This document shows, one piece after another, positions 45,279 to 52,718 of a DNA stretch of 64,000 nucleotides. The position numbers and the translations under genes were made by a program. Each line of letters begins with the position of its first letter. Within the stretch, counting starts at the first letter, position 1. The notes beneath the pieces were generated by a model. It saw nothing but the letters and a program-made list of their open reading frames with translations, made no database searches and was not told where the DNA came from. Origin of the DNA: Gramella sp. MAR_2010_147 (GTDB taxonomy: Bacteria > Bacteroidota > Bacteroidia > Flavobacteriales > Flavobacteriaceae); assembly GCF_900105135.1 (NCBI RefSeq), contig NZ_LT629741.1, positions 2,480,001 through 2,544,000 of the forward strand, written 5' to 3'.

Positions 45279-45286
45279 TATCTTTG
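45279..45286 (+). promoter_or_regulatory. -7 element of the FAD-dependent oxidoreductase gene
   Basis: TATCTTTG fits TAnnTTTG and ends 6 bases before ATG 45293. An upstream in-frame TTG (45284) overlaps it and cannot be the start. Confidence 0.5.
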
Positions 45287-45292
45287 CGCCTT

Positions 45293-46852
45293 ATGAGCAC
45301 AATGGTACAAATTACGGCATTGCCACATGAACAGGATGATCATCACCTATTGTTAAATAGAGCGATTCGGAAATCAAATATTCGAAAAGATGATATTGGA
45401 GACTGGCGAATTAGAAAACGTTCTATAGATGCCCGTAAAAACCCTGTAAGACTTAATCTTCAAATAGAAATTTGGAGAAATGGTGAAGAAAAGTCTGCGA
45501 TTACACCATTCGTGTATCAAAATGTTTCAGAAGCTAAAAAAATAGCTATTGTTGGTGCAGGACCTGCAGGTTTATACGCAGCATTGCGCGCTGTGGAAGC
45601 GGGGCTAAAACCAATAGTTTTTGAAAGGGGAAAAGATGTAAGATCCAGAAGGCACGATCTGGCTAAGATCAATAAAGAACAAATTGTAAATCCGGAATCA
45701 AATTATTGTTTTGGAGAAGGTGGTGCTGGAACATATTCAGATGGGAAATTGTATACACGATCCAAAAAGCGGGGTAACGTTTTAAAAGCTTTAGAGTGGT
45801 TCGTAGAATTTGGGGCAGATCCTGATATTCTGGTAGATGCGCATCCTCATATTGGCACTAATAAATTACCCAGGATTATTACAGCCATGCGTGAAGCCAT
45901 TATAAAGGTTGGAGGAGAAGTACACTTTAACTCCAAACTTACCGATCTTAAATTGAAAGAAGATAGTATTGAGGCGATTGAGATCAATGCAGAGAAATGG
46001 CATTCTTTTGATGATGTTATTCTGGCAACAGGCCATTCAGCCAGAGATATATTTCACCTGTTACATGACAAAAAAATTAAAATAGAAGCTAAGCCTTTCG
46101 CTTTAGGTGTTCGTATTGAACATCAACAAAAATTAATTGATCATATTCAATATCATGGGGATGATGAAAATCCTTATTTGCCGCCTGCTTCTTATACTTT
46201 GGTAGAGCAGGTAGATGGGATGGGGGTTTATTCATTTTGTATGTGCCCGGGAGGTATTATCGCTCCCTGTGCTACACAACAGGAAGAGGTAGTAACGAAT
46301 GGCTGGAGTCCAAGTAAGCGCAATAATCCATATTCTAATTCAGGTATAGTGGTAAGTATTGAGCCAGCCGATCTCCCGAACTTTAAGCCGAATGATCCTT
46401 TTGTATGTCTTGATTTTCAGAAATTAGTGGAAAAAAAATGCTGGGAAGCTGCGGGGAGAACTCAAAGGGTTCCGGCACAGCGTATGAAAGATTTTGTAGA
46501 AAGGAAGGTTTCGAAAGATTTTCCGAAAACCTCTTATCAACCGGGTATAGTAAGCGTGGATCTTAATAAGGTTCTTCCAGATCTTATAGCGCGCCGATTA
46601 AGAAAAGCATTTATGAAATTCGGTAAAAAACTGAAAGGCTATTATACTAATGATGCCGTATTACATGCCCCGGAAAGCAGGACTTCCTCTCCTATATTAA
46701 TTCCGCGTAATGCTGAAACTTTAGAACATGTAGAAGTAAAAGGACTCTATCCATGTGGAGAGGGCGCTGGTTATGCCGGAGGAATTGTTTCCGCAGCAAT
46801 AGATGGGATTAATTGTGTAGATGCGATTGTAAAGAAATATGAGTTACGTTGA
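45293..46852 (+). CDS. FAD-dependent oxidoreductase (COG2509-like)
   Basis: 519 residues from ATG 45293. An N-terminal domain of about 80 residues precedes the FAD-binding GxGxxG in VGAGPAGLYAALRA (88-93). GEGGAGTYSDGKLYTR and the late GEGAGYAGGIVSAAIDG are characteristic of this uncharacterised family of large flavoproteins. No operon partner. The reaction is unknown. Its 3' side is followed by the dnaE-derived fragment rather than by a terminator. Confidence 0.88.
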   Translation: MSTMVQITALPHEQDDHHLLLNRAIRKSNIRKDDIGDWRIRKRSIDARKNPVRLNLQIEIWRNGEEKSAITPFVYQNVSEAKKIAIVGAGPAGLYAALRAVEAGLKPIVFERGKDVRSRRHDLAKINKEQIVNPESNYCFGEGGAGTYSDGKLYTRSKKRGNVLKALEWFVEFGADPDILVDAHPHIGTNKLPRIITAMREAIIKVGGEVHFNSKLTDLKLKEDSIEAIEINAEKWHSFDDVILATGHSARDIFHLLHDKKIKIEAKPFALGVRIEHQQKLIDHIQYHGDDENPYLPPASYTLVEQVDGMGVYSFCMCPGGIIAPCATQQEEVVTNGWSPSKRNNPYSNSGIVVSIEPADLPNFKPNDPFVCLDFQKLVEKKCWEAAGRTQRVPAQRMKDFVERKVSKDFPKTSYQPGIVSVDLNKVLPDLIARRLRKAFMKFGKKLKGYYTNDAVLHAPESRTSSPILIPRNAETLEHVEVKGLYPCGEGAGYAGGIVSAAIDGINCVDAIVKKYELR

Positions 46853-47245
46853 GCACAGTTGAATTGTGAGTTTAATTCCCAACTCTTATTTTAAAGCCCG
46901 ATTCCACCAGTCTTGGATCTGTTTAGGTGGGCTGTTTCGAGATCCTCTTTATATCCAGAAATATATAAAATAGATCTTTTATATAGAGTAAAACATATAG
47001 TTAGATTTAATTTATTTTTTTTTAGTCTTAAAGGTTGCACAGTGTTTTTGGCAAATTTTAATAATAAAATTAACAATGCATAAATAGGAATTTTCAAAGG
47101 TTTCTTACATTCTATTGTGTTATAAATCAATATAATAAGTGTTTTGGACGGATATTTTTGAAAGATATCGAGTATTCTAATGATACCAATAATTTCGATT
47201 TTCTTATAATTACTTTTATCATGAAAACATTGATAATCATTTATT
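46853..47245. other. Gene-free AT-rich region upstream of the islet lipoprotein
   Basis: Holds the dnaE 3'-end remnant (46891-46985), then about 260 very AT-rich bases without a credible gene. A reverse-strand frame of 133 codons across it lacks any recognisable domain and is treated as chance. TATTTTTG at 47153-47160 is a possible -7 element for the lipoprotein gene, 85 bases from its ATG. Confidence 0.55.
46891..46985 (-). pseudogene. Decayed fragment of a dnaE 3' end
   Basis: Bases 46891-46924 match the end of dnaE (48148-48181) at 32 of 34 positions in the same orientation. Both differences are synonymous in the dnaE frame (TDPRLVESGFK encoded in both). Upstream on the reverse strand the same frame reads KDLFYIFLDIKRISKQPT, a stop, then TDPRLVESG. 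This resembles dnaE's EDLGYISINVKWISRQAVQ. It is too short to be functional. It marks the far edge of the islet holding the lipoprotein gene. Confidence 0.7.
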
Positions 47246-48085
47246 ATGAAGAAGTATTTTTTTATTAACGCTATGCTGGGGTTATTATTCATGGGGTGCT
47301 CCGTAGATAATGGCGAAATGAATTTAGAAGAAGATCAACTTTTAATTGCAAATTCGATATTAGATGTTGAGGGATGTGTATCAGAAACCTATGATTTAAA
47401 TAGTAATTCTGAAGAAAAATTAGGAACATTCATTATTACCAATGATTTGGATGAGCTATACTTAAATTTCACCTCTGTTGAAGGCTATAAAATTTCTAAA
47501 ATTAATTATGAGGTAGCGGTGAGTGAAGATGACTTACCTATCAATAACGGAGGTATTATTGTTAGTCAGTTAGAGCATTCTGAAAAGTTTTCACCTGCTA
47601 TTGATTATTTGGGAGATAGTTTTTCTCTGGATAGTTTCGGAGAGACAATTCCTGCTTTTTTAGTTGTAGCAGCTAGAATTCAATATATGGATGAATCTGG
47701 AGAAACCTATGCAGTTTGGGTTGGAAATAAAATGGCTGGAAAAAACAACAGTAAATTTTTAGAATATCCAATTTGCATACCTCAACAGGAGCCGGTGTGT
47801 GAGGTTGATGCAGGTTCAGATAATTCGGTAACTCATTCTTATAGACAATTACTTACACTTGGGTTAGTATCTGCTGACGTTAAAGAGATGTATTTAGATT
47901 TATTAGAAGATGGTGTTAGCCGTGAAGGCACTTTTGATCCTACGATCACACAAATTCTTAATTTTATATATGCGAATGAAGCTAATAGATATGGAGAACA
48001 CTCTACAACTTATACTGTCACAAATGAATTAAATGGTGAATTTTGCACAGATTCTACCTTATTGACTATTACCATTACTCCATAG
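47246..48085 (+). CDS. Hypothetical surface lipoprotein inside the islet
   Basis: 279 residues with lipobox LFMGC. The N-terminal part is beta-rich with no known match. The C-terminal 80 residues (CEVDAGSDNSVTHSYRQLLT ... LLEDGVSREGTF ... TTYTVTNELNGEFCTDST) resemble a small cysteine-bracketed domain that I recall in flavobacterial surface proteins. It is markedly AT-rich. It is flanked by the two dnaE 3'-end copies and converges on dnaE with a shared long palindrome. Confidence 0.72.
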   Translation: MKKYFFINAMLGLLFMGCSVDNGEMNLEEDQLLIANSILDVEGCVSETYDLNSNSEEKLGTFIITNDLDELYLNFTSVEGYKISKINYEVAVSEDDLPINNGGIIVSQLEHSEKFSPAIDYLGDSFSLDSFGETIPAFLVVAARIQYMDESGETYAVWVGNKMAGKNNSKFLEYPICIPQQEPVCEVDAGSDNSVTHSYRQLLTLGLVSADVKEMYLDLLEDGVSREGTFDPTITQILNFIYANEANRYGEHSTTYTVTNELNGEFCTDSTLLTITITP

Positions 48086-48089
48086 TATA

Positions 48090-48149
48090 AAATTTGTTTA
48101 AAATAAAAAACGATACTTAAAAGTGTCGTTTTTTATTTTAAACAAATTT
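48090..48149. terminator. Long palindrome serving as bidirectional terminator
   Basis: Arms 48090-48118 and 48121-48149 are complementary over 29 positions with a single G-U and a 2-base centre. T-rich runs in both arms suit termination in both directions. The right arm includes the last four codons and stop of dnaE, so the left arm is an inverted copy of coding sequence. Confidence 0.85.
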
Positions 48150-51113
48150 AAAACCCGATTCCACTAGTCTTGGATCTGTTTGGACTGCCTGTCTGGAAAT
48201 CCATTTTACATTGATTGAGATGTACCCAAGATCTTCTGTTGCTGTTCCATGGCATAAATAAATACCTTTATGAATATGCGGGTGTTTTATTGCAACTGCA
48301 GGGAAGAGAACTATGTCAAAAATATTACCTTCTATATCGTAGAAAGTTCCAAAATACATATACTTCCCATTAGAGGTGCCGGTTTTTTTTGAGTTCACAA
48401 GATTCCCATAGATCTCTACATTTTTGCCAGTAAGAACTTTGAGGTCTTTAGCAGTTATTGAATTTCTTACAGGTTCTTTCAAGAGATCAAACTGGCTGCA
48501 TAGCGGAAAACCTAATAGCTCCATTTGATCATAAGCTTCTATAAGTTTTGAGAATTCAAATTCCGGAAGCTCGAAATCTCTGTGTTTTGGTTTAAAAAGT
48601 AATGCCTGATTGCTTGTGGGTTTACTGTTTTGAAGTTTAAAATAGGCTTTCCATAATAGGTGATGCTTGTCAAAATTTGTAAATCTGAATGCGTTAATTT
48701 TAAGTAGCAGGCTTATCTGTTCTATTGAAATATGTACGCGATCTATAAAATCGTCCAGAGATTTAAATATGCCAAAAAACTGCCTGTTCTCAAGGATCTG
48801 TCTAATAGTTTTATCTTCAAGCTCTTTAATATACCCCAGCCCCAGGTAAATGTCTTTACCATAAATTGTGTTGGGATGGTCGCTTTTATTAATACAGGGA
48901 GGATGTATCTCACCTCCGCATCTTCTAATTTCCTGAATATAGGTTTGAAGGTCATAGAAACCTCCCCCGTTATTGATTGCTGCTACCATAAATTCCAGCG
49001 GAAAGTATTTTTTGAGATATAAGCTCTGATAACTTTCTACCGCATAGGAAGCGGAATGACCTTTTGGAAAAGCATAACCGGCAAAAGAAGAGATCTGTTC
49101 CCAGACTTCATTGGCTAGTTGATCTTTGTGTCCTCGTTTCTTACAATTCACACGAAACGTCTGTTCAATCTTTTCCATCTGACCTTTGGAAGTCTTTTTT
49201 CCGCTCATTCCGCGACGAAGCACATCAGCATCATCTAAATCCAGTCCGGCAAATTCAAAAGCGACCTTCATTACATCTTCCTGGTAGACCATTACCCCAT
49301 AAGTCTCTTCCATGATTTTAAACATCACAGGATGAGCTTGTTTTCTACGTTCGGGATCACGATGCCTGCGAATAAACTCCTCTTTCATTCCGGCACTTGA
49401 AATTCCCGGTCTTATTACTGAACTGGCGGCTACCAGATTGTTATAATTATCGGTTTGGAGTTTAGTAAGCAGTCCGCGCATTGCCGGAGACTCTACATAG
49501 AAAACTCCTATACAATCACCAACTTTCAGTAGATCATTAATCGCCGGGTCTTTCTTGAACGCATCTATATTCTCCATATCTTCAATTTTCGCGGTGGGTT
49601 GATTTTGCTTTATAATTTCAATGGCATCGGTGATCTTGGAGAGTCCGCGCTGGGCAAGAATATCGAATTTATGAATACCCACTTCTTCAGCAATATTCAT
49701 GTCTATCTGGATAGTCCTGAAACCTTTGGGAGGGAGAAAAGTTCCTGCATAATTATGAACAGAATCATTTAGTATAAGAATTCCACCTGAATGCACGCTT
49801 AGATAATTTGGGAAACCATCGATTAACCTGCTGTATCTAAGCACAAGTTTTTCGAGGTGATCCAATTCTTTAAAATTGAAAAATCCCTGAGAGAGCTTAT
49901 CAATATTCTCTTTTGGGAGTCCAAAGACTTTGCCGAGTTCTCTAGCCACGGCACGACGTTTAAAAGTGACATAGGTTCCCATAAGGGCAGTATTTTCATA
50001 CTTTTCAAAAATATAGCGGGTTACATCATTTCTGTCTTTCCAGGAAAAATCGATATCAAAATCGGGTGGAGAACTTCTGTTGGGATTAATAAAGCGCTCA
50101 AAATAAAGTTTCAGTTCAATAGGGTCTACGTTGGTAATTCCCAGAATATAAGCGACGATAGAATTTGCGCCACTACCACGCCCCACAAACGGATAATCCA
50201 TCTTTTTGGCATATTCGATAATACTGAGATTGATAAGGAAATAGGACACAAACCCAAGTTCTATAATTACTCTCAGCTCTTTTTCCAGCCTTGCATGTAC
50301 CTCCTCTTTCGCTTCTGGATATCTGTCAGAAAGTTTTTCATAGCATAGATTAATGAGTCTTTCTTTATCCTCTTCGGCAGAATTTCCGGCAACCTGTAAA
50401 TTTCTATTCTGGGATTTTCCAAATTCAAAATTTACATGACAGGCATCCATCAAAATTTGAGTGTTTTCAAGAATATGTGAAAAATCTTCAAATTCTTTTT
50501 CAATGTCTTCTGGCGGAATCATTTGATGATAAAAAGAACCCTGTTCACTTTCCGGAAGCTTACTCAACAAGGTGTTATTATCTATTGCCCGAAGTAGTCG
50601 GTGAGCATTATAATCTCTTTTGTTCCTGAAACTCACGGTTTGAAGAACTACCAGTTTATCATTTAGTTTTCTGTATGCTGAAAACTTTAATTTTCGAAGA
50701 CTCTCTGTAGAAACTCCAATAAACTCATTCTTTTGATAATCGTTCTTCTGCTTGCTGATCACTTTTTCCAGCGGATAAATAATAAAGCAGTCGGGCAGGA
50801 AAGGAGCTTCAGCTGGAAAATCTTTCTGAGCATGGATGTAATTTGAAAGATGCTCATTTAACTGCCTGTAACCTTCATTGTTTTTAGCAATGCCCACATA
50901 TTGTTGCTGTGCTCCATTTCTAAAATCGATCCCTGCCAGCGCTTTAAAATTTGCCTCTTTTGCGATTTTTAAAAACTCAAGACAGGCTGATGTATTGTTA
51001 ATATCGGTAACAGCAAATTGTTTGATTCCATTTTTTTGAGCGAGCTCACATAGCTCTTCTGTAGGCATTGTGCCGTAGCGTAAAGAATAATATGTATGGC
51101 AGTTTAAGTACAA
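48138..51113 (-). CDS. dnaE2: Second DNA polymerase III alpha subunit (error-prone DnaE2/ImuC-like)
   Basis: 991 residues, shorter than replicative DnaE (about 1150 or more). The polymerase triad is PDFDIDF (Asp351, Asp353, Asp355). The N-terminal PHP domain is degenerate: NCHTYYS in place of HxH, and TDINNTS in place of TDHGN. A helix-hairpin-helix region and a C-terminal OB domain (VEIYGNLVNSKKTGTSNGKY) follow, with no tau-binding tail. It lies downstream of dinB on the same strand, the usual partner in a translesion mutasome. The symbol is by family and context; it could also be annotated dnaE. Confidence 0.85.
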   Translation of the reverse strand: MYLNCHTYYSLRYGTMPTEELCELAQKNGIKQFAVTDINNTSACLEFLKIAKEANFKALAGIDFRNGAQQQYVGIAKNNEGYRQLNEHLSNYIHAQKDFPAEAPFLPDCFIIYPLEKVISKQKNDYQKNEFIGVSTESLRKLKFSAYRKLNDKLVVLQTVSFRNKRDYNAHRLLRAIDNNTLLSKLPESEQGSFYHQMIPPEDIEKEFEDFSHILENTQILMDACHVNFEFGKSQNRNLQVAGNSAEEDKERLINLCYEKLSDRYPEAKEEVHARLEKELRVIIELGFVSYFLINLSIIEYAKKMDYPFVGRGSGANSIVAYILGITNVDPIELKLYFERFINPNRSSPPDFDIDFSWKDRNDVTRYIFEKYENTALMGTYVTFKRRAVARELGKVFGLPKENIDKLSQGFFNFKELDHLEKLVLRYSRLIDGFPNYLSVHSGGILILNDSVHNYAGTFLPPKGFRTIQIDMNIAEEVGIHKFDILAQRGLSKITDAIEIIKQNQPTAKIEDMENIDAFKKDPAINDLLKVGDCIGVFYVESPAMRGLLTKLQTDNYNNLVAASSVIRPGISSAGMKEEFIRRHRDPERRKQAHPVMFKIMEETYGVMVYQEDVMKVAFEFAGLDLDDADVLRRGMSGKKTSKGQMEKIEQTFRVNCKKRGHKDQLANEVWEQISSFAGYAFPKGHSASYAVESYQSLYLKKYFPLEFMVAAINNGGGFYDLQTYIQEIRRCGGEIHPPCINKSDHPNTIYGKDIYLGLGYIKELEDKTIRQILENRQFFGIFKSLDDFIDRVHISIEQISLLLKINAFRFTNFDKHHLLWKAYFKLQNSKPTSNQALLFKPKHRDFELPEFEFSKLIEAYDQMELLGFPLCSQFDLLKEPVRNSITAKDLKVLTGKNVEIYGNLVNSKKTGTSNGKYMYFGTFYDIEGNIFDIVLFPAVAIKHPHIHKGIYLCHGTATEDLGYISINVKWISRQAVQTDPRLVESGFKFV

Positions 51114-51497: not shown

Positions 51498-52718
51498 TTA
51501 TTGCTTCCTATGCGCAAGTACAATCGGTGGTTCCCCATTAAAAGGATTTCCCATTCTCCCAATGGTTTTTACATCCATACTTACGGCACGCATCACACTA
51601 TGTTCTCCAAAGCGTTTTTTTATTTTATCTAACGAATTATAGAGATTGAGCATCTCTTGAGAATCATCAAAAAGATTGATCTGATAATGCCCGCCTACGA
51701 GTCCGCTAAAACGAACCCCAATTAGTCTTATAAGCATTCGTCTTGAATAAAGCTGTTTGAAAAGTTCTTCCACCTTCGGAATAAGAATATGATCAGCGCT
51801 GGTGTAGGAGATCTTAGCCTGTTTACTGTAGGTTTGAAAATCTGAATAGCGAATCCTTACACTTACATTAGAGGTGAGCTTGTTACCACGTCTTAGCTGG
51901 TAGGCAAGACTTTCAGCCATGGCGACCAGGGTTGCATGAAGCCGAACCAGATCGATGGTATCCCGGTTAAAGGTGCGTTCTGTCGAGATAGATTTTCGCT
52001 CATGAAAAGGAATGATTGGCGGATTATCGATTCCGTGAGCTCTTTTCCAAATGGTACGGCCATTCTTCCCAAGAACACTTTCCAGCACTTCTACCGGCAT
52101 TTTTTGGATAGTCTCTATTTTTCGAACTCCAAGATTCAGTAATTTTTGAAAAGTTTTATTTCCTACCATTGGAATTTTATTTACCGTAAGAGGAGCCAGA
52201 AAAGATCTTTCGGTACCGGGTTCGATGATCTTTTGCGCGTAGGGTTTTCCTTCGCCGGTCGCGATCTTAGAAACCACCTTGTTTTGAGAAAGCCCGAAAG
52301 AAATAGGCAATTTTGTCTCTTTAAGAATGCTTTGCTGGAGTTCTTTTGCAAACTGGTGGATCCCGAAAAAGCGATCCATTCCGGTAAGGTCTGCATAGAA
52401 TTCATCTACACTGGCCTTTTCAAAAGAAGGGACTTTATTTTGAATAATTTCAGTTACTTCATGGGAGAGTTTGGTGTAAATGGAGGCATTTCCTTTAATT
52501 ACAATGGCTGAGGGACATAAGTGCCTCGCTACTTTCATAGGCATCCCCGAGTGCACTCCAAATGTTCTGGTCTCATAACTACAGGCTGCTACCACACCTC
52601 GATCTCCCAGGCCGCCAACAATAACAGGTTTTTCAATTAATTCCGGGTGCTCTCTTCGTTCTGCTGAAACAAAAAAAGTGTCCAGATCCAGGTGAATTAT
52701 AGACTTTGTATTTTTCAT
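51498..52718 (-). CDS. dinB: DNA polymerase IV (DinB-type Y-family polymerase)
   Basis: 406 residues. Catalytic carboxylates are in HLDLDTFF (Asp11) and SVDEFYADL (near residue 103). ACSYETRTFGVHSGMP is the family fingerprint. A helix-hairpin-helix thumb and little-finger domain follow. QINLF (346-350) fits a beta-clamp binding peptide. It copies past damaged bases at low fidelity. dnaE follows 384 bases downstream across repeats. Twin palindromes at 52724-52755 directly upstream are a probable damage-response operator. Confidence 0.93.
   Translation of the reverse strand: MKNTKSIIHLDLDTFFVSAERREHPELIEKPVIVGGLGDRGVVAACSYETRTFGVHSGMPMKVARHLCPSAIVIKGNASIYTKLSHEVTEIIQNKVPSFEKASVDEFYADLTGMDRFFGIHQFAKELQQSILKETKLPISFGLSQNKVVSKIATGEGKPYAQKIIEPGTERSFLAPLTVNKIPMVGNKTFQKLLNLGVRKIETIQKMPVEVLESVLGKNGRTIWKRAHGIDNPPIIPFHERKSISTERTFNRDTIDLVRLHATLVAMAESLAYQLRRGNKLTSNVSVRIRYSDFQTYSKQAKISYTSADHILIPKVEELFKQLYSRRMLIRLIGVRFSGLVGGHYQINLFDDSQEMLNLYNSLDKIKKRFGEHSVMRAVSMDVKTIGRMGNPFNGEPPIVLAHRKQ

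Follow-up and report, generated by a model that had tools for sequence, protein, structure and literature searches.

The stretch analysed here, referred to as the window, is the 64,000-nt segment at positions 2480001-2544000 of the 3.16-Mb single-contig genome of Gramella sp. MAR_2010_147; Christiangramia is the genus formerly named Gramella. It contains a small lipoprotein gene, lip, in an islet bounded on one side by the polymerase gene dnaE2 and on the other by a second, dead dnaE2 end, beyond which lies a gene for an FAD-dependent protein (FAD gene). Intact dnaE2 (48138-51113, minus strand) encodes a protein of 991 aa that ends in FKFV* (asterisks denote stop codons) and matches the Pfam families PHP, DNA_pol3_alpha, finger and HHH_6; its C-terminus was compared across 23 genes. 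The first-pass annotation had called this gene dnaE, which is correct insofar as it is a DnaE gene, but it is the second, short DnaE, which adjoins a DinB-type Y-family polymerase gene recognized by its domain matches (51498-52718, minus strand), and another DnaE-like frame of 1461 aa sits elsewhere in the genome. In an NCBIfam scan of dnaE2, the general superfamily model alone cleared its cut-off, and the nine named loci matching the window dnaE2 comprised seven from Christiangramia (76-82% identity) and two from other genera (63% and 53%), which places the window in Christiangramia. The FAD gene (45284-46852, plus strand), assigned from the Pfam family FAD-depend_C and from synteny, is convergent with dnaE2. 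The sole gene-sized frame of the islet is lip (47246-48085, plus strand), which encodes a putative lipoprotein of 279 aa, judged from its signal-like N-terminus and aligned relatives. Folding and an inverted repeat identified a hairpin (48090-48149) between the convergent dnaE2 and lip, with 24-bp arms at 48090-48113 and 48126-48149; its energy is -28.4 kcal/mol (z -6.9), none of 200 shuffles was equally stable, and the stop codon of dnaE2 falls within one arm. The hairpin is a probable two-way terminator for dnaE2 and lip.

The first-pass annotation reported that 46891-46924 and 48148-48181, the latter on the minus strand within the intact dnaE2 end, agree in direct orientation at 32 of 34 bases, and that neither difference changes the amino acid encoded in the dnaE frame. 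Both statements were borne out (CTA/CTG for Leu and GGT/GGC for Gly), and the repeat is not a chance match: a 28-base pattern with up to three mismatches found only these two places in the window and had no match in 100 shuffles, no third place on either strand of the window reached 22 of the 34 bases, and a 111-base query against the whole genome matched just the two copies (E <= 0.001). The description of the sequence beyond 46924 as dnaE-like with one stop was also right but incomplete, as homology flanks the block on both sides. Positions 46925-46976 stay in the dnaE frame without a frameshift, the single stop being a change of CAA to TAA, and 46889-46872 encodes IRVGN*, which is absent from the intact window dnaE2. 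The whole dead dnaE2 end therefore measures 105 nt (46976-46872, minus strand, tail and stop included; translation DLFYIFLDIKRISKQPT*TDPRLVESGFKIRVGN*) and by alignment consists of a displaced end of 29 codons with one in-frame stop and no frameshift (46890-46976, minus strand) and a tail of five codons plus stop (46872-46889, minus strand), which lies 19 bp from the stop of the FAD gene. A mechanically called frame of 133 aa (46891-47292, minus strand) runs antisense from the start of lip through the remnant in a frame that differs from that of dnaE2 and is probably spurious.

The 34-base block matches the dnaE2 genes of relatives at 24-29 positions in 11 of the 14 aligned and at 20-23 in the other three, and it matches better than the preceding 53 bases in 13 of the 14. 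Because the block matches most relatives well too, the 32 of 34 matches to the gene of the window itself represent an excess of a few bases only, and later conversion of the last 34 bases, which had been proposed earlier, was set aside as unnecessary though conceivable.

The 3' flank of dnaE2 was read in 22 of the 24 genomes of the genus, namely the window and 21 others (all but G019 and G023). In a test set beforehand, all seven lip-less genomes in which dnaE2 faces the FAD gene held a single dnaE2 end at the junction and lacked the insert there, as the first-pass annotation had anticipated. The dnaE2-FAD spacing in these genomes is 24, 30, 102, 108, 108, 851 and 862 bp, so that five of the seven junctions span 24-108 bp. 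Because all seven have one dnaE2 end, lip is most likely a later addition to a junction that lacked it. The gene lip stands beside dnaE2 in two of the 22 flanks, those of the window and of Christiangramia gaetbulicola (G005). In four genomes (G003, G017, G009 and G021) dnaE2 adjoins an aspartyl-protease gene with no FAD gene between them, the contig of G018 stops about 1.2 kb past dnaE2, and in the remaining eight flanks the stretch read past dnaE2 showed neither the FAD gene nor the protease gene. With the 127 C-terminal residues as query, a second dnaE2-end match appeared in three of the 24 genomes (the window, G005 and G019). The match in G019 was rejected: its pieces, which are stop-free, come from the end regions of two different contigs, as for one gene split by the assembly. 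Genuine second dnaE2 ends thus occur in two of the 24 genomes, the same two in which lip lies beside dnaE2, and the pattern that would speak against an insertion, with the same lip and remnant in all relatives, was not found in these flanks and genomes.

Two further features of these junctions may be recorded. The long intervals between dnaE2 and the FAD gene in G006 (851 bp; L062:5084-5934) and C. sabulilitoris (862 bp; L067:4955-5816; both with dnaE2 forward) contain repeated intergenic motifs such as ACACTTCGACTGCGCTCAGTGTGACA and no frame above 68 aa; in C. sabulilitoris, the interval also gave a weak match to the FAD gene in reverse (58 nt, E 0.006), which was attributed to chance. In G011, whose lip is named Christiangramia sediminis, lip is flanked by the FAD gene and the protease gene, without dnaE2 at the site; in sequence comparisons, neither a dnaE2 piece nor an FAD piece was seen repeated around this lip. 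The FAD, protease and odhB genes of G011 are close relatives kept at another place, and the dnaE2 genes of G011 and G004 (L082 and L083) are just 58% identical to that of the window, against 71-86% for the other genus genomes listed, which suggests that the dinB-dnaE2 pair was lost or replaced in G011.

The two dnaE2 ends of the window have different surroundings. The intact end is tied to lip because dnaE2 stops inside the hairpin that it has in common with lip. The remnant side, in contrast, reads as the old lip-less junction, since the remnant retains its own tail and lies as close to the FAD gene as dnaE2 does in the more compact lip-less genomes. The remnant could also be aligned to the C. 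sabulilitoris dnaE2 past the stop and into intergenic DNA with one 1-nt gap after the stop, and among the 23 genes scored it gave 54 with C. sabulilitoris, 41 with the gene of the window itself and 39 with G006. Among the 14 relatives, five codons follow FK in eight (including G006, the nearest), two or three in five and eight in C. gaetbulicola, while two (FV) follow it in the intact window gene.

A second and larger case is provided by C. gaetbulicola, in which dnaE2 is followed by lip1, the broken end of an FAD gene (codons about 515-238), that of a dnaE2 gene (codons 870-989), lip2 and the intact FAD gene, in this order. At the seam, dnaE2 codon about 870 is fused to FAD codon about 238, with a possible short similarity seen by eye, and the duplicated dnaE2 stretch amounts to about 360 nt; direct copies thus flank the insert in both genomes, at about 87 nt in the window and this greater length in C. 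gaetbulicola. The order is the expected product when a dnaE2-lip-FAD segment lands in tandem beside another. In a tree of ten FAD genes and the broken copy, the broken FAD end grouped as the sister of the FAD gene of the same genome (ultrafast bootstrap 99), and the tree position of the broken dnaE2 end was not firm. The proteins encoded by lip1 and lip2 are 35% identical in the N-terminal half and 82% identical in the C-terminal half; the N half of lip1 is 97% identical to P0014 and 94% to P0011, both from other contigs, and the best match to the N half of lip2 is P0019 (74%). Because lip1 and lip2 are different alleles, recombination between strains is indicated rather than plain copying. 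Of the 23 dnaE2 genes collected, 15 were used for alignments and trees, 12 for the ratio test, 12 for the sliding comparison with the window and all 23 for the list of alignment scores. In the ratio test, the dnaE2 3' end of C. gaetbulicola gave 1.55 against its sister G014, the highest value of 66 pairs (mean 1.19, sd 0.11), an unusual distance that is suggestive of a foreign tract for this pair only. Shared ancestry of the events in the window and in C. gaetbulicola is unlikely, as the seams differ and the broken FAD end postdates the split from G014. A proline in a QPT motif is common to both remnants and missing from all 15 aligned intact genes, and this one codon may hint at a common origin of the two.

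On these grounds we favour, with somewhat better than even confidence, an entry anchored in dnaE2. In the ancestral state, dnaE2 and the FAD gene would have stood end to end. An incoming DNA segment, consisting of a dnaE2 3' end followed by a lip gene, could then have entered by recombination anchored in dnaE2, and its other end may have been joined without homology, or else the segment may have circularized and entered by a single crossover. The product would be an intact dnaE2 with a new end, lip, and the displaced dnaE2 end still beside the FAD gene, where it subsequently decayed. A single crossover would leave a remnant that is part donor and part resident, whereas one-sided entry would leave a resident one. 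The observed basis consists of the lip-less relatives, a displaced end that keeps a tail and the spacing of a lip-less junction, the different intact end, the lack of a tyrosine integrase nearby and the second case in C. gaetbulicola with its other seam and two different lip alleles; the recombination route, and an origin of the segment in another strain and not in the same genome, are inferred. Of the earlier proposal that an element integrated at or recombined through the dnaE 3' end and left the displaced end behind, the displaced end and recombination are retained, and the attachment site is not.

Several observations weigh against this dnaE2-anchored entry. The 3' end of the intact window dnaE2 gave a ratio of 1.12 against G006, without excess divergence, and no foreign tract is visible; a foreign 3' end on this gene was sought by sliding identity and by the ratio test and was found by neither. 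The seam in the window has decayed beyond legibility, and the short tail of the intact gene is not evidence by itself, given the two- and three-codon tails in five of the 14 relatives. As the sister of the remnant, the dnaE2 gene of the window itself received an AU p value of 0.06, the clade of the window and G006 0.37 and C. sabulilitoris 0.73. For C. gaetbulicola, the pair with G014 is the only extreme one, with unremarkable ratios against C. sabulilitoris (1.13) and C. lutea (1.10). Its two dnaE2 copies are about 70% identical and its two FAD copies about 86%, an inequality that no single simple event explains. Furthermore, classical one-sided recombination, according to an excerpt of PMC3240628, usually yields a deletion and not a duplication; in favour of the entry, the same excerpt describes circularized fragments in E. 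coli that entered by a single crossover and left duplications of the homologous arm of 109-950 bp in 14 sequenced clones.

The leading rival, which we regard as unlikely, is a tandem duplication within one genome: a segment with the dnaE2 end and lip would have been copied and the second lip then lost, so that a dnaE2 end was left by the FAD gene. C. gaetbulicola presents such an arrangement, with its seam of broken FAD and broken dnaE2 and a broken FAD end nearest to its own FAD gene, but its two lip genes are different alleles. In the window, moreover, the lost lip would need clean removal, because the remnant keeps its tail and the 19-bp spacing like that of lip-less relatives. The collapse of an old dnaE duplication, offered by the first-pass annotation, is conceivable along these lines and carries the same cost, an extra clean deletion that restores the lip-less spacing.

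Marginally less probable still is an origin of the complete layout, with its remnant, in a different species, followed by import through ordinary homologous recombination with dnaE2 and the FAD gene as arms. Over the 53 bases upstream of the block, the remnant is slightly nearer to C. sabulilitoris (36 of 53) and C. aestuarii (35 of 53) than to its own gene (31 of 53). This part exceeds shuffles only against such relatives: none of 300 shuffles scored as well against C. sabulilitoris, C. aestuarii or G021, while 60 of 300 did so against the window dnaE2 and 9 of 300, a weak result, against G006. The low AU value of the window gene as the sister of the remnant points in the same direction. On the other hand, the sites are few, the 3' end of the FAD gene resembles those of G006 and G011, and a donor with this arrangement is absent among the 24 genus genomes. 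Alignments, shuffles and AU tests settle the remnant neither as a copy of the gene of the window itself nor as a foreign allele. The weakest rival, a site-specific integrative element that used the 34-base dnaE2 end as an attachment site, is very improbable despite the direct repeat around the islet and the intact dnaE2: the homology does not end at a short core, as the 105-nt dead end extends beyond the 34 bases both ways, the C. gaetbulicola seam lies elsewhere, no dnaE2 or FAD piece is repeated around the G011 lip, and the window is free of tyrosine integrases, as noted earlier, with all eight PF00589 matches in the genome outside it and the nearest about 282 kb off (serine recombinases and conjugation genes were not searched).

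Gene gain by events of the dnaE2-anchored kind is already known, and the comparisons made here draw on excerpts of the cited papers. Restriction-modification genes of H. pylori show insertion with long target duplication (Nobusato et al. 2000, as cited in PMC1643837 and PMC3031569); the present case resembles them in the small gene insert, its absence from relatives and the long direct copies of the host target at both sides, but the cargo here is a lipoprotein and not a restriction-modification system, one copy has decayed and the target is a gene end. It would have a single homologous anchor in common with homology-facilitated illegitimate recombination and with the crossover of circularized fragments (PMC3240628), and the latter route also duplicates a homologous arm, over 109-950 bp; unlike in those cases, the event here is reconstructed from its product alone, with an unreadable seam in the window. 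Displaced ends have also been used to explain the arrays of type VI secretion system (T6SS) immunity genes in V. cholerae (PMC5361080, in which displacement of Rhs C-termini is cited). As in those arrays, a variable module would arrive on a conserved anchor, the old end would be shifted downstream, and C. gaetbulicola holds two alleles in a row; in contrast, the anchor here is an unrelated polymerase gene and no toxin/immunity pair was recognized. Pneumococcal transformation likewise creates tandem duplications (merodiploids) upon DNA uptake, although these need repeats common to the donor and the chromosome and are very large (PMC3784515). No paper on the present locus was found in the open-access literature, as judged by titles and the beginnings of abstracts, which makes this a weak absence. 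The locus indicates that a conserved gene can gain an accessory neighbour in the absence of a nearby tyrosine integrase, with a readable trace left behind.

The lip protein has an N-terminal signal-like stretch that ends in MGC, invariant among the 17 aligned proteins, a variable N half and a C-terminal repeat-type domain. The alignment (A1) was made from 20 proteins and holds 16 of them and the window protein itself (P0001 is the same protein), with P0004, P0017 and P0020 left out. No family in Pfam or NCBIfam matched lip, and the PDB gave no sequence match at E <= 1 and no fold match at E <= 0.001; the AlphaFold2 model (17 rows) had a mean pLDDT of 82.3 and a pTM of 0.55, with residues 1-40 below 50. 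Nearly full-length relatives at 42-47% identity are encoded in G005 (two) and G011 (one), and the region upstream of lip (47016-47245, plus strand, boundary approximate) resembles, in an alignment by eye, the upstream regions of both C. gaetbulicola copies and of the G011 gene. Weaker matches of full-length type occur in G015 (29%), G003 (26%), G013 (25%) and G020 (24%), and the remaining matches listed cover mostly the C-terminal domain only. At E <= 1e-15, lip was found in two of 299 genomes of the family, its own and one at 30% identity, in a sample without G005 and G011. Among the 17 aligned proteins, the N and C halves differ sharply in identity in P0002/P0005 (95% and 60%), P0011/P0015 (94% and 61%), P0006/P0016 (45% and 92%) and P0007/P0011 (51% and 85%). 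Judged from these alignments, the halves are shuffled between family members, and lip may be a surface protein under diversifying recombination, which could act as an adhesin, a receptor or a recognition factor.

The separate and larger case in C. gaetbulicola hints that the dnaE2-FAD spot is a repeated landing place. A possible but doubtful extension is that alleles of a modular surface lipoprotein are captured at this junction in Christiangramia, a process in which new alleles arriving on dnaE2 ends would displace older ends, the displaced dnaE2 ends would form a fossil record of successive captures, and lip would be under diversifying selection as a phage receptor, adhesin or kin-recognition factor. 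If so, such ends could serve to trace the replacement of one allele by another in a mosaic lipoprotein family and to put these events in sequence. Within that family, the 466-aa relative P0004 has three C-terminal repeats in tandem that are nearly identical. A relative of the C-terminal domain also occurs as part of a large protein of 1813 aa from the same genome (L126:3310-8751), which carries a type IX sorting domain and whose gene adjoins PorP/SprF and OmpA-like genes.

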